Shown here: piece by piece, positions 1,318 to 6,384 of the stretch
Numbering within the stretch: the first letter of the stretch is position 1
Layout of the letters: each line of letters starts with the position of its first letter
NCBI GenBank assembly: GCA_003153955.1
Contig: PMCB01000107.1
Span: 1,156 to 22,214 of the forward strand
Direction: 5' to 3'
Source: Dehalococcoidia bacterium
GTDB lineage: Bacteria > Chloroflexota > Dehalococcoidia > Dehalococcoidales > Fen-1064
Length of the DNA stretch: 21,059 nucleotides
Translations under genes and position numbers: made by a program
Notes under the pieces: model-generated
What the model was told of the DNA's origin: nothing
Databases searched by the model: none
Seen by the model: the letters and a program-made list of their open reading frames with translations, nothing else

Positions 1318-2604
1318 ATGGAAAAAAGTAAAAAAATATTTTACGGATGGTGGGTAGTTCTCGTTATCACCATCCTGTTTTTTGTCGGCGGCGCTGCCCC
1401 GTTCGCTGTTGTGTTGAAACAACTGATGGTTCAGTTTCACACGGGCAGGGGCGAAGTTTCCTTATCTCAATCAATATCGAGTATTGCCGGGGGCCTTACC
1501 GGAATATTAGTCGGCAGAATAATGAACCGCCATAGCCCGAAAAAATTCATGTTGTGGGGCTCGATCACCAGCGGGTTGTGCATGCTGCTCATTAGTTTGG
1601 CGCACAACCTGGCATTTTTGTACATATTTTTCTTTCTTGGCGGGGTGGCAGGCGCATTCAGTAATGCCATTGCCATGTTCACCATATTGTCGCGCTGGTT
1701 CACACGGAAATGGGGTACCGCCATCGGCATTGCGATGGCCGGCGGTGGTATCGGCAGCATCGCTATTCAGCCTTTGGTGGGTATCCTTGCCCAGAACTAC
1801 GGCTGGCAAGCGACATATATCTTTGCCGGTTCGCTTGTTCTTGCGGTCAATGTGCCGCTGATTCTGTTTGTATTGAAGGACCGCCCGGAATCTATGGGCT
1901 TGTTGTCGGATGGCGATGAGCCTGGTCAAACAGCCGTACCTGAATCCGGCAATCTACCCGTTAAATCTACGGTAAAACTACAAAATACCGGTCCGGATAA
2001 CGAGCGGTTTACTTACCTGAAAAATCCATCGCTCTGGTTGATGGGCATCAGTTTTGCTTTTGTGTCAATCGGTTCCAGCGCGATTACTACCCAGGAGGTT
2101 TCATTCCTTACCGACATGCATGTTTCCGATACGATAGCGGCGACAGCCCGGGGACTTACACTCGGCATCGGAGCGATTGCCGCTCTGTCTTCCGGCTGGT
2201 TAGCCGACCGGTTGATTTCCCGCTACGTCACTATTCTCTTCTTCTTTTTGTCGATGGTCGGAATGCTGATATTGATTCCGGCTGTTTCAATGTCCCAAAT
2301 CTGGCCCTTTGTCATTATCTACGGTCTGGGTATCGGTGCTGGCGGCACGCTGTTACCAATTGTGACCAGGGATATTTTCGGCGCCCGTGACTTCAGCGCG
2401 ATGTTCGGATTTGTTATCGTATTGCTGTCCGCGGGTAATTCTATCGGAGCCCCGCTGGCAGGGTATATGTATGACGCTACCGGGTCTTACCATTCAGTAT
2501 TTATCATCATTACCGCTGTCTACATTGCTGCAATAGTGTTCATTTATTTTGCCTTTGGCGTCAATCCTAAGCCGCTGATGAGACCTTCTAAATTACCAAA
2601 ATAG
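1318..2604 (+). CDS. MFS transporter, monocarboxylate / oxalate-formate antiporter-like
   Basis: A 428-residue inner-membrane carrier with about twelve predicted helices in two halves, separated by a hydrophilic loop at about residues 188-230. The N-terminal FYGWWVVL block (8-15) and the KDRPESMGL block after helix six (187-195) are typical of the MCT/OFA branch of the major facilitator superfamily, which moves small carboxylates. GRIMNRHSPKK (66-76) sits where MFS proteins carry the conserved helix 2-3 loop motif. The substrate cannot be read from sequence. The start at 1318 is chosen because residue 2 onward matches the family N-terminus; no good ribosome binding site precedes it, but a TATAAT does. 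The gene lies upstream of, and in the same direction as, the SDR gene, but a 247-base gap with its own promoter separates them. Confidence 0.85.
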   Translation: MEKSKKIFYGWWVVLVITILFFVGGAAPFAVVLKQLMVQFHTGRGEVSLSQSISSIAGGLTGILVGRIMNRHSPKKFMLWGSITSGLCMLLISLAHNLAFLYIFFFLGGVAGAFSNAIAMFTILSRWFTRKWGTAIGIAMAGGGIGSIAIQPLVGILAQNYGWQATYIFAGSLVLAVNVPLILFVLKDRPESMGLLSDGDEPGQTAVPESGNLPVKSTVKLQNTGPDNERFTYLKNPSLWLMGISFAFVSIGSSAITTQEVSFLTDMHVSDTIAATARGLTLGIGAIAALSSGWLADRLISRYVTILFFFLSMVGMLILIPAVSMSQIWPFVIIYGLGIGAGGTLLPIVTRDIFGARDFSAMFGFVIVLLSAGNSIGAPLAGYMYDATGSYHSVFIIITAVYIAAIVFIYFAFGVNPKPLMRPSKLPK

Positions 2605-2701
2605 GATCGCGTCCCGGGTGGATGCCTTTATGTTAACGTCTCTGGTTTTGTCAGACAGTTTTGTTGCACCACGATATCCGGAAGATATACGATAGATTTC
2701 A

Positions 2702-2729
2702 TTGACTAAAACATATTATAATTTATAAT
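2702..2729 (+). promoter_or_regulatory. Promoter of the SDR gene
   Basis: TTGACT (2702-2707), a 16-base spacer and TATAAT (2724-2729) form a strong sigma-70-type promoter. Transcription is expected to start at about 2736, giving a leader of about 115 bases. A second TATAAT at 2717-2722 is badly spaced and was not preferred. A palindrome covers the predicted start point. Confidence 0.7.
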
Positions 2730-2736
2730 AATAAAT

Positions 2737-2748
2737 ATGATATATCAT
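2737..2748 (+). promoter_or_regulatory. Palindromic operator candidate (MarR box), SDR promoter
   Basis: ATGATATATCAT is a perfect 12-bp palindrome starting 7 bases after the -10 box, so it covers the predicted transcription start. An identical copy with the same promoter spacing occurs at 6338-6349 upstream of the MarR gene. A bound regulator here would block RNA polymerase. Assignment to the local MarR protein is inferred from position and symmetry. Confidence 0.6.
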
Positions 2749-2851
2749 CAGCTATTAATCTCGAACCTGATGCGAGTGTCAAACTTTGCAGTAATCAGCC
2801 GCCGGCATATTTCAGCAATAAAATAATTACAGGAATAAAAGGGGAACAATC

Positions 2852-3637
2852 ATGAGACTGGAAGGAAAAGTTGCGGTCATTACCGGCGCCGGCTCCGGCA
2901 TCGGAAGAGCTACTGCCATACTGTTTGCCAAAGAAGGCGCCAAAATACTGGTTGCGGATTATAACGCTAAATCAGGCCAGGAAACCGTCGAACAAATTAA
3001 AAAAGCCGGCGGTACTGCCGGTTTTATAGAAGTAGATATCGGCAAGATTGCTGATAACGAAAACATGATCGACACGGCAGTAAATTTGTATTCGCGGCTG
3101 GACATTTTATATAACAATGCCGGGCTCGGCGGCCCGACTCTAGAGTTGACAACCGAAGAAAATTGGCGTGCCATGCTGGATGTAAACCTGACCGGGCCGT
3201 TTTTCGCCTGTAAACATGCCATCGAAGTGATGAAAAAACAGGGCAGCGGTAATATCCTCTTTACCGGTTCCGCCGGCGGTTTGAAAGGCACCGGCAGGGC
3301 AAGGTCGCCCAGTTACGCCGTGGTGAAGGCCGGCGTTATCTTACTCACTGATTGTCTCAGCCGATTGGTCGGTCAATATAACATCAGGGTCAATTGTATC
3401 TGCCCCGGCGTGACCAATACCGCCCTGTATGACTCCCATTTCTACGATGCGCAGGGTAATGCCCATACTTTGAACGAGGAAGAAAAACGTGCTTTCATGG
3501 CAGGGTTTAACAAGCAGATTTCGCTTGGCAGAGTCGGAACTCCGGAAGAAATTGCTAACCTGGCTTTGTTCCTGGCATCGGATGAATCGTCTCATATTAC
3601 CGGTGAGGCTATCCTGATTGATGGGGGACGGATGTAA
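2852..3637 (+). CDS. Short-chain dehydrogenase/reductase (classical SDR)
   Basis: A 261-residue cytoplasmic NAD(P)-dependent oxidoreductase. The cofactor motif TGAGSGIG is at residues 11-18, the structural NNAG at 88-91, the catalytic Ser at 140 and YxxxK at Tyr155/Lys159. An acidic residue at the end of strand beta-2 (Asp36 in VADYN) points to NAD rather than NADP. The C-terminus ends with the usual SSHITGEAILIDGG block, so the protein is complete. AGGGG lies before the ATG at good spacing. The substrate is unknown; hydroxyacids, alcohols and ketones are all possible. The promoter carries the palindrome shared with the MarR gene, so expression probably responds to that regulator's ligand. 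It converges with the solute-binding protein gene. Confidence 0.88.
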   Translation: MRLEGKVAVITGAGSGIGRATAILFAKEGAKILVADYNAKSGQETVEQIKKAGGTAGFIEVDIGKIADNENMIDTAVNLYSRLDILYNNAGLGGPTLELTTEENWRAMLDVNLTGPFFACKHAIEVMKKQGSGNILFTGSAGGLKGTGRARSPSYAVVKAGVILLTDCLSRLVGQYNIRVNCICPGVTNTALYDSHFYDAQGNAHTLNEEEKRAFMAGFNKQISLGRVGTPEEIANLALFLASDESSHITGEAILIDGGRM

Positions 3638-3672
3638 TTAACCCGCCATCCCATCGGCATATTTACAATACT

Positions 3673-3697
3673 TTACATAAAGATAACGGGTATGTAA
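3673..3697. terminator. Hairpin between convergent SDR and solute-binding protein genes
   Basis: TTACATA and TATGTAA form a perfect 7-bp stem with an 11-base loop, followed on the plus strand by GTTTTA. It lies in the short gap between two convergent genes, where a terminator is expected. The stem is AT-rich and weak, so its efficiency is doubtful. Confidence 0.4.
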
Positions 3698-3700
3698 GTT

Positions 3701-5383
3701 TTAGCGTTGGTACGTCTTTTTTAGGGTTTTATCCATCCAGAAACGCGCGGTATAGAAACTCAGCATACTGGCGCCGCCTACGCCCATCCAGAGGGAATAG
3801 ATTTGGGCGTGATAACCTTTTATCCAGGGCTGACAGAGCGAGTATTCCAACGGTTGCAGCAGGGAAATGACAAAATGTTTTCTGGCGACGTACTCGTTGG
3901 CGTCTCTTAATACCTGTTTTAACTCGTCTTCGGTTTTAGTGGCCAATGCCTTACCGTAAAAAGCATCGAAATCAGGGTCGGCCACCATCGCGTAGTTGGT
4001 GGCATACCCGGTTTGGAACCGTGTGATCACTCTGAGTGGCGCATAAGTTTGCCCCAAGGGACCATAAGGCCGGTACACCAATTGGTCGTGTTTGCGCTGG
4101 TTTTCCACAAAATCAGTATAGGACGCCGGATCCATCTGGCGTATTTTCATTTTGATACCGATATCCGCGAAATATGACTGGACGATGCCTAGCAATTCCA
4201 TATCCCCGTCAGTGTCTGCAATTACATTGGTCTCAAATCCTTTGGGATAGCCTGCGTCTGCCAGCAGTTTCCGCGCCAAAGCCGGATTATAAGCGTACTC
4301 GTTTTTCAGCTCCTGCGGCCATTCCTCATATGGGAATCCCCACCCTTTCATGTATTTTGTCGCTGTTAAAGTAGAAGGGTAGGAATCTACTGAACCTTCA
4401 TAATGATTTTTAGCGATGGACGGCAGGTCAATCGCCATTTGCATTGCCAAGCGTACCCGGATATCCGTAAATGGCGCCCGGTCATTTCGCGGTTGTATCG
4501 TAACTGTTGGGGTCCGGGGAATGAAAATCTGTAGTATTTCAGGATTGGTTTTCTGAATTGATTTCGCTTGTTTCAGGAAAACCCGGTCCATAATGTCGAT
4601 TTTACCGGCGCGCATCATTTCCAGCGCTTCATTGTCATCGGGGATAATCAGGAACTTTATCATATCCAGATAGGGGAGCCGGTTTTGGGGATAACGTTCA
4701 TCATGTCCCCAGTAATCGGGGTTCTTCCCCAGCGTCGCCGATTTCCCGGGAACAAAATCCTTCTAAATATAAGGGCCTGTGCCGATGGCGTGGTGCCAGT
4801 CGGTGAGGTCGCCCCATTTCTTGACTGCCTCCGGATTTTCCAGACATTGCGCCTGATAGGCATTATGCAGGGTTTCAATGATGTTTTCCGGGTTGAGCGT
4901 CTTAAACCTGAAAACAACCGTATATTTGTCCGCGGCGGTTACGGATATCAGGTCTTTTAATCGGACATCTGTCGTGCGGTAAGGACTTGGGCTTCCCCCA
5001 TCTATACCGTATAAACGGTTATAATGAAAGACTACGTCATCCGCGGTAAATTCACGGCCGTTGGCCGGCAGAATATTCTGCCAGCGCACTCCTTGCCGCA
5101 AGTGGATAATATGCGTGCAGGGGTCTTTAAACTCCCAGCTTTCCGCCAATTGGCCTTTTAAGTATTTTGAGGGATGCCATGTTATTTTATAATCCCATTC
5201 TGCCGGGTCTACCGTCCAGTCATCCGCCACCAGCCTTTCCATCCAGGCGCCGTAAATACTTGTCAGCGTCTCTGTGAAATATGGGTCGAAATTCACGATG
5301 TCCCGATTGGCTCGTATCACCAGTTCCCCGCCGTACTGCGGTTTCCCGAGCTTATCCCACCACTTGCCGGCTGTTTTTTCCAT
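3701..5383 (-). pseudogene. ABC transporter solute-binding protein (family 5, peptide/oligopeptide type), interrupted by an amber codon
   Basis: The reading frame spans 560 codons and matches SBP_bac_5 (DppA/OppA-like) proteins throughout: the YGGELVIR opening, a LAESWEF block, an REFTADDVVFHYNR block, GTGPY and KNPDYWG. It is broken at codon 207 by TAG (complement of 4763-4765). The same frame continues directly after it with KDFVPGKSATL, so this is a point change, not a frameshift; relatives usually have Leu here (TTG to TAG would explain it). The N-terminus is also odd. The protein starts MEKTAGKWWDKLG, at what is normally the mature part, and has no signal peptide or lipobox. An in-frame TAA lies nine bases upstream, so the frame cannot be extended. 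AGGAG lies about 13 bases from the ATG, rather far. No permease or ATPase genes are adjacent. Most likely a decaying gene; readthrough or an assembly error are alternatives. Confidence 0.75.
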
Positions 5384-5642
5384 GCGGCTTCGTTATCTCC
5401 TGAAAAAGCACGTTTTCGCTAAAATCAGATCTCAGGAATTATCATTCATATCAAACCGAACCGGAAAATATCCTGACGGGAGAAAATGGAGAGATAACAG
5501 GAATTAATAGTTGAATCGTGAAAACGGCCCCCGGTTGCCTGTTTATTCTACGCTTCCGGGGTAGTGATACCGGCTAAAATGATGAACAATTGTTCCTGTA
5601 CTTTGGCAGATGAGGCACTTGCGAACCGTTTCCTGGCTTTGA

Positions 5643-6092
5643 TTAACCGTCGATCCCTTCTTTTAGCTTGTTAAACAGTTTCGTCAGACTATCGTGGGCC
5701 TGCTGCAGTTCTTCCGCATCCAGTACGGAATACAACGCGTTGATGGATTTACTCTCTTTACTGATCTTAAGCATTTCGCGTCCCTTGTCGGTCAGTTCCA
5801 TTCTTAAAAGCCTGGATTTAGGTGTATCTTTAATTCTTTGAATCAATCCGTCCCTTTCCATGATGATACTTTGGCGGCAAATGGCATTGATTTTCCGGTC
5901 GGCATGCTTCGCCACTTCGGATAAAGTGGCATTTACGCCCATTTCTTGAATAATGCGTAAAACATACAGTTGCTGTGGGGCAATGTGGTGTTGCGTCAGT
6001 TCTCTTCTTCTTACGAGTTGCGTAAAATGACTGATTTGTCCCAGTAATAAAAACAAATCGTAACCCGATACTGACTGTGTCGTTTTTCCCAT
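5643..6092 (-). CDS. MarR-family transcriptional regulator
   Basis: A 149-residue DNA-binding protein with the MarR layout: an N-terminal dimerisation helix (about 10-35), a winged helix-turn-helix (about 40-100, with LSEVAKHADRKINAICR as helix-turn-helix and MERDGLIQRIKD-RLLRMELT as wing), and a C-terminal helix ending in KLFNKLKEG. Members bind short palindromes as dimers and usually release DNA when they bind small phenolic or other ligands. AGGGG lies about 12 bases before the ATG. The nearest strong promoter is about 260 bases upstream and carries a palindrome identical to the one at the SDR promoter. Autoregulation plus control of the SDR gene is the simplest reading. The ligand is unknown. 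Confidence 0.88.
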   Translation of the reverse strand: MGKTTQSVSGYDLFLLLGQISHFTQLVRRRELTQHHIAPQQLYVLRIIQEMGVNATLSEVAKHADRKINAICRQSIIMERDGLIQRIKDTPKSRLLRMELTDKGREMLKISKESKSINALYSVLDAEELQQAHDSLTKLFNKLKEGIDG

Positions 6093-6337
6093 AAAGTTAA
6101 TTCCCCTTCAGAAAAACATCGCGGAATAAGTTCGTCGCGCGTTTTTCTTACCTATTATAACCTAAATTTAAAATCTGCCGTTATTGTCATGGTGTTAGTG
6201 TTTTAATAAATGGATCGGTTATTTTTAACCTTATTGCCTTATTGGTCAGCATTATTGAGATGGTATTTGTGGTAAAAATCATATCGATAAATTGATGGTT
6301 AGATGTTATACTGCCTCTCAATACTATATTTATTTGT

Positions 6338-6349
6338 ATGATATATCAT
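6338..6349 (-). promoter_or_regulatory. Palindromic operator candidate (MarR box), marR promoter
   Basis: ATGATATATCAT, identical to 2737-2748. On the minus strand it begins 7 bases after the -10 box of the promoter at 6384-6357, exactly as at the SDR gene. Flanking bases agree further: both sites read TATGATATATCATYAGC on the plus strand. Transcription is predicted to start at about 6350. Confidence 0.6.
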
Positions 6350-6356
6350 TAGCAAT

Positions 6357-6384
6357 ATTATAAAGTATTAATGGCATTTGTCAA
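6357..6384 (-). promoter_or_regulatory. Promoter upstream of the MarR gene
   Basis: On the minus strand: TTGACA (6384-6379), 16-base spacer, TATAAT (6362-6357), both boxes perfect. It is the best promoter in the window by consensus. The first gene downstream is the MarR regulator, about 260 bases away. Confidence 0.75.

Follow-up and report, generated by a model that had tools for sequence, protein, structure and literature searches.

Paired palindromes at an SDR promoter and a marR promoter of a Dehalococcoidia bacterium are probably operators of the adjacent MarR-family regulator

What governs a gene whose predicted transcription start lies within a palindrome, when the same palindrome lies at the same place in the promoter upstream of a nearby regulator gene? 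This question is raised by a stretch of 21,059 nucleotides of contig PMCB01000107.1 (hereafter the window) from an uncultured Dehalococcoidia bacterium, whose genome assembly GCA_003153955.1 (G000; 2,086,464 bases, 137 contigs, 83% complete) is referred to below as the source genome. The window holds a gene for a short-chain dehydrogenase/reductase (SDR) oxidoreductase, an interrupted gene for a family 5 solute-binding protein (SBP), and a gene for a MarR-family regulator (marR). We estimate a probability of about 0.8 that the adjacent MarR protein uses the two palindromes as its operators; it would then act as a local repressor of both the SDR promoter and the promoter upstream of its own gene, here termed P1. 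With such a repressor, an uncultured lineage would gain a concrete and testable set of regulator, operator and target.

A first-pass annotation of the window had described the SDR promoter on the plus strand and the marR promoter on the minus strand as TTGAC(A/T), 16 nt, TATAAT, 7 nt and ATGATATATCAT, and a check of the sequence bears this description out (Table 1). The palindrome is exact at both sites, and in a promoter consensus scan the marR-side promoter scores 12 matches out of 12 and the SDR promoter 11 out of 12. The gene layout agrees with the accompanying statement that the two sites bracket the SDR gene, the broken SBP gene and marR; as marR and the SBP gene share an orientation and converge with the SDR gene, the putative operators stand on either side of two presumed transcription units. 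When the two promoter regions are compared on the same strand, the palindrome is the sole 12-mer that they have in common, and it is identical at 12/12 positions while agreement around it falls to 9/16 in the spacer, 2/7 in the 7 nt that follow the -10 box and 2/19 in the 19 nt beyond the palindrome.

Abundance and random placement of the 12-mer across the genome had been named in advance as the outcome that would speak against a regulon. What is found are two exact copies of ATGATATATCAT in the source genome, both at the window promoters; among 100 related genomes, seven hold one place each and 93 hold none. Dinucleotide shuffling of the two upstream regions in the window gave a shared perfect palindrome of 12 bp in 0 of 5000 pairs, one of 10 bp in 13 and one of 8 bp in 401. 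Searched across 156 genomes of the order, the composite pattern TATAAT-N7-ATGATATATCA is found at four places, two each in the source genome and in a genome of the same genus (G004), and all four are SDR or marR-side promoters; the reversed control is found at none. Among 15 of the single-mismatch occurrences in the source genome and four same-genus genomes (L063-L077), inspection of the contexts by eye showed no second site in the same promoter register. The core of the palindrome, TGATATATCA, has no third place in the source genome and two places in G004 besides the cassette. Neither of the latter is counted as a regulon member: the one on contig C145 lies inside a 307-aa reading frame, and the one on contig C50 overlaps a possible -10 box upstream of a 194-aa open reading frame (ORF; no Pfam match) and an MFS gene, this MFS piece being 29% identical to the window MFS protein over 108 residues.

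The orthologous locus in G004 (L048, on contig C118) has the same marR, SBP and SDR arrangement as the window, and both of its promoters read TTGACA-16-TATAAT-7-ATGATATATCAA. Conservation in relatives holding both genes, suggested earlier as a check, is accordingly observed in the sole other such genome among those of the order that were searched, where an operator at fixed spacing from the -10 box is kept in the same register at both the target and the regulator promoter. Ungapped comparison of window and G004 at the SDR promoter gives 5/6 identities in the -35 box, 7/16 in the spacer, 6/6 in the -10 box, 4/7 in the next 7 nt, 11/12 in the 12-mer, 6/19 in the following 19 nt and 11/60 in the upstream 60 nt; at the marR-side promoter the corresponding values are 6/6, 9/16, 6/6, 4/7, 11/12, 5/19 and 22/60. 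Leader lengths, counted from the end of the operator to the start codon, differ between window and G004 (103 vs 206 nt for the SDR gene, 245 vs 188 nt for marR) and the spacing between promoter and operator is unchanged. The perfect palindrome shared by the G004 promoter pair measures 10 bp, a length attained by 30 of 5000 shuffles, and the G004 operator can be extended to a 28-mer in which 11 of 14 pairs are symmetric, a figure derived from the scan score. Within each genome the two operators also have flanks in common, a one-sided GCTR in the window and TATTCC...GGAATA in G004; such genome-specific flanks fit co-evolution with a local repressor, and they fit promoter duplication as well. As a separate observation, each G004 operator region (L048:1610-1681 and 5019-5090) also holds an outward promoter-like TTGACA-TAGCAT pointing toward further SBP genes, with a spacer of 17 nt on the marR side and, by eye, 18 nt on the SDR side, on account of which one G004 operator may serve two promoters.

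The leaders of both species bear on the possibility that the shared sequence acts in RNA, as a structured element or leader peptide with which both transcripts would begin at their 5' ends. The first letters of the 12-mer are indeed ATG, close to the predicted start, and can be read as the opening of a mini-ORF. However, the first 72 nt of the transcripts fold no better than shuffled sequences (equalled or bettered by 151, 127, 164 and 196 of 200 shuffles), and the mini-ORFs are of unequal size, with 16 and 29 codons in the two window leaders and 4 codons in both G004 leaders. Both the hairpin and the peptide are disfavoured on these grounds, and we hold this explanation to be the least probable of those considered.

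Against the interpretation of the palindromes as MarR operators stand several observations. In raw counts, neither the 12-mer nor its core stands out against a reversed-pattern control: the reversed word has one exact place in the source genome vs two for the 12-mer, tolerance of one mismatch gives six places (two exact) for the 12-mer and six for the control, and the 10-mer core is found at 2 places vs 3 for its control in the source genome and at 4 vs 2 in G004. With up to two mismatches, the three matches in the window are equalled by 7 of 100 shuffles and the two in L048 by 30 of 200. Promoter-like sites are likewise no more numerous than in shuffles (5 vs 3.0, sd 1.8; 2 vs 2.3, sd 1.5), and it is match quality alone, not site number, that sets the two window promoters apart. 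In the cassette itself, the marR-side operator stands 245 nt from marR with a closer TATAAT (P2 in Table 1) 67 nt upstream of the gene, and autoregulation of marR may for that reason be only partial; marR and the SBP gene are separated by 259 nt in the window and by 25 nt in G004; and PF01047 scores the window MarR at 21.4 bits, below the Pfam cut-off of 24.6. Finally, the cassette is found in one other genome only, such that the footprint rests on two lineages, and the two promoter regions of G004 have 30 12-mers in common.

Two alternative origins draw on these observations. Background-level mismatch and core counts are what coincidence would yield, yet coincidence does not readily account for the shared register or for the conservation (four places in 156 genomes, and the cross-species footprint), and we regard it as very improbable. 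The earlier statement that the arrangement is unlikely by chance is upheld by exact identity, register and conservation, and not by raw counts alone; the evidential weight lies in exact identity, in the register that the two promoters of the cassette share, and in conservation. Alternatively, a strong promoter might have been duplicated, leaving the palindrome as a by-product without a regulator. Because of the 30 common 12-mers, the two G004 promoters may stem from the duplication of a single promoter and hence may not be independent, and duplication in G004 is plausible. As a general explanation it is nonetheless unlikely, given that the window regions share the palindrome and little else and that between species the palindrome is again the part that is kept, at 11/12 positions at both promoters.

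If the palindromes are operators, the identity of the protein that binds them must be considered. A palindrome by itself does not name its binding protein, and the source genome has 10 MarR-type matches, the window MarR included; a different factor, either another MarR paralog or a member of another family, could be responsible. Counter to this, site and promoter are found together only in cassettes with this marR, in both genomes, and one of the sites lies upstream of this very gene. Since the core is absent from the rest of the source genome, none of the other nine MarR-type matches there carries it, and two other reciprocal-best ortholog pairs of MarR genes have different shared palindromes. 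A different binding factor therefore appears improbable, if marginally less so than promoter duplication, and the adjacent MarR is preferred.

Assignment of the window protein to the MarR family is supported by its predicted fold, and the profile matches are mixed. Its G004 ortholog scores 29.2 bits with PF01047, above the cut-off, and a profile built from an alignment of 21 MarR sequences, among them 19 further homologs of 56-94% identity encoded on metagenome contigs, retrieves 15 Protein Data Bank (PDB) sequences at an E-value of 1e-5 or better; 12 bear the name MarR family or MepR (best match 5e1w, E 1.2e-10). The AlphaFold model of the window MarR (pLDDT 81, pTM 0.62) has helices (H) and strands (E) in the order H10-34, H39-54, H57-63, H68-80, E84-88, E96-100, H102-112, H117-121 and H126-147, which we take to be that of a MarR-type winged-helix domain; the helix at 68-80 is taken as the presumptive recognition helix. 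At the start of this helix the window protein reads KINA and the ortholog KINV, a likeness that is only suggestive because 6 of 23 other MarR paralogs have REIN or RGIN. The best NCBIfam match is TIGR02337 (HpaR; E 2.2e-7), and its 30.7 bits fall below the equivalog cut-off of 121.2. Genome contigs searched with the single MarR protein gave no match, and searched with the alignment gave two loci of one metagenome-assembled genome. Taken together, the genome-wide 12-mer test, conservation and the MarR-type predicted fold support the earlier interpretation of the two promoters as a probable MarR regulon.

A mechanism may be proposed on this basis. A MarR dimer would bind the AT-rich palindrome, beginning 7 bp after the -10 box, and the bound dimer, covering the predicted start site, would keep RNA polymerase from both the SDR promoter and P1 by steric repression. 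P1 would transcribe marR and probably the SBP gene behind it, the two being presumably co-transcribed; in the gap between these genes in the window, no promoter or terminator on the minus strand is listed by the scan. Release of MarR would come from a ligand, which may be a substrate of either the SDR or the SBP. The weaker P2, a possible basal marR promoter, may keep some repressor present, to which P1 would add feedback. A TATAAT also lies 65 nt upstream of the G004 marR ortholog, and the form GTGNTATAAT occurs 45-65 nt upstream in 5 of 25 MarR genes, that ortholog included (comparisons of MarR genes cover 25 of 26, the gene on G004 contig C144, cut by the contig end, being left out). P2 of the window is without the TG of this form, and promoter scans list no -35 box for it.

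Table 1. Features of the cassette and of related loci. Coordinates are those of the window unless a locus is named.
Feature	Position	Strand	Basis and remarks
-35 box TTGACT, SDR promoter	2702-2707	+	Consensus scan, cross-species comparison
-10 box TATAAT, SDR promoter	2724-2729	+	16-nt spacer; 6/6 kept in G004
Putative operator ATGATATATCAT, SDR promoter	2737-2748	.	Over predicted SDR transcription start; 7 nt after -10; ortholog site L048:5079-5090
-35 box TTGACA, promoter P1 upstream of marR	6384-6379	-	Consensus scan, cross-species comparison
-10 box TATAAT, P1	6362-6357	-	16-nt spacer
Putative operator ATGATATATCAT, P1	6349-6338	.	Over predicted P1 start; 7 nt after -10; ortholog site L048:1610-1621
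TATAAT, possible second marR promoter P2	6154-6159	-	67 nt upstream of start codon; aligned TATAAT in G004
MarR-family regulator, 149 aa	5643-6092	-	Profile and predicted fold; ortholog L048:1810-2268, 63% identical
SDR oxidoreductase, 261 aa	2852-3637	+	PF13561/PF00106; ortholog L048:4087-4872 (-), 80% identical
Family 5 SBP gene, interrupted	3701-5383	-	Pieces 5383-4763 and 4663-3701
SBPs without lipobox beside marR paralogs	window 3701-5383 (-); L043:5199-6884; L046:1308-2984; L048:1-1194, 2294-4000; L049:2989-4674		

The remaining genes of the cassette have relatives of varied reach. Homologs of the SDR at E<=1e-60 are found in 5 of 156 genomes, among at most 16 candidates scored per genome where some genomes had up to 43: the source genome (100%), G004 (80%) and three at 48-53% identity. 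A further homolog, P0061, named as from a Dehalococcoidales bacterium, is 90% identical. The SBP gene of the window is broken by an in-frame TAG at 4765-4763 on the minus strand, and an intact relative is found in G004 (L048:2294-4000). The window SBP is without a lipobox and has the mature-domain motif at residue 8. A plasmid search with the cassette returned short SDR-region matches covering 2-3% of the query in six records; viral contigs gave no relative.

The window cassette is one of a larger number of MarR and SBP combinations. MarR-type matches to the window query number 10 in the source genome, 16 in G004, 5 in G001 and 0-2 in eleven other family members, and 7-9 elsewhere in the order in G021, G037, G053 and G057. 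SBP_bac_5 stretches, a count in which some genes enter in pieces, number 39 in the source genome and 79 in G004 vs 7, 6, 11 and 3 in G001, G005, G007 and G021. MarR and SBP genes are thus jointly expanded in the source genome and G004 relative to the other genomes of the family that were searched. Nine marR-adjacent SBPs carry the mature-domain motif searched for; classified by lipobox motif without a signal-peptide predictor, six have no lipobox and start 7-13 residues before the motif, and three have one. Lipobox-bearing SBP sisters with Thr/Ser-rich linkers are present in the same or related loci.

The regulators of these modules may differ in their operators. A near-palindrome search in five reciprocal-best MarR ortholog pairs found shared near-palindromes in two (C8/4_93 and C19/4_139) and none in C98/4_118b and C85/4_116; the window pair was missed because the threshold of 0.84 lies just above the symmetry of the G004 12-mer (5/6). 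Upstream of marR, the two positive pairs (loci L044/L058 and L045/L060) have palindromes of their own, GTATTCAYTARTGAATAC and AGTACGTAYACGTACT, which differ from that of the window. A G004 MarR paralog in L054 has, upstream of its marR (4822-5271), a palindrome of 10 bp, ATGATATCAT, built on the same half-site as in the window, ATGAT. The distinct palindromes of the paralogs suggest paralog-specific operators, and repressors that seemingly differ in this way would form a natural set for studying the divergence of MarR specificity. A broader and much more speculative proposal is that paralogous MarR/SBP modules each have their own operator and that SBPs which have lost their signal peptide remain cytoplasmic beside MarR and serve the repressor as ligand-binding partners. 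We consider this unlikely; if true, it would describe an intracellular sensing system made from former transport receptors.

Comparison with characterized MarR systems, drawn here from excerpts of the published accounts, places the predicted operators in context. A review states that palindromes in marR promoters often lead to MarR sites (PMC5487221). In Agrobacterium tumefaciens, the MarR-family protein EstR is described as repressing an enzyme gene and its own gene through two operators: one, a 14-bp palindrome, covers the -10 of the enzyme promoter, and the other, homologous in sequence, covers the -35 of the regulator promoter (PMC5201249). The two predicted operators of the window likewise lie at an enzyme and a regulator promoter. 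In contrast, the EstR genes are divergent and have one intergenic region, whereas the putative window operators stand at the two ends of a convergent cassette of 3.6 kb; additionally, EstR senses hydroperoxide via a cysteine, and its operator, GTTATCGCGATAAC, is unlike that of the window (PMC5201249). SCO3205 of Streptomyces coelicolor similarly has operators upstream of a neighbour gene and of the regulator, predicted by comparison of ortholog upstream regions, but both lie in one 119-nt intergenic region and binding was proven by surface plasmon resonance (PMC3737563), whereas the window sites are predicted operators. HpaR acts through inverted repeats to repress an enzyme operon and differs in its operator, printed in the paper as TTAA-N4-TTAA (PMC7180172).

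Taxonomically nearer are the Rdh2R-type MarR regulators of reductive dehalogenase genes in Dehalococcoides mccartyi, very probably of the same order as the source genome; they are described as local repressors beside the genes they control (PMC6299228, PMC13390414), the role proposed for the window MarR. The presumed targets of the window MarR differ, being the SDR and the solute-binding protein, and no reductive dehalogenase gene adjoins the window marR. The reductive dehalogenase family PF13486 has 0 matches in the source genome and G004, both of which are incomplete, and 27, 28 and 19 elsewhere in the order in G021, G057 and G093. These dehalogenase-rich genomes, together with the SDR homolog P0061, indicate that the order is very probably Dehalococcoidales. 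The literal 12-mer had no match in literature text, and titles and abstract openings yielded no paper on MarR-SBP cassettes of Dehalococcoidia. The predicted operator pair belongs to a well-known kind of gene control, of which the present set is a new member.

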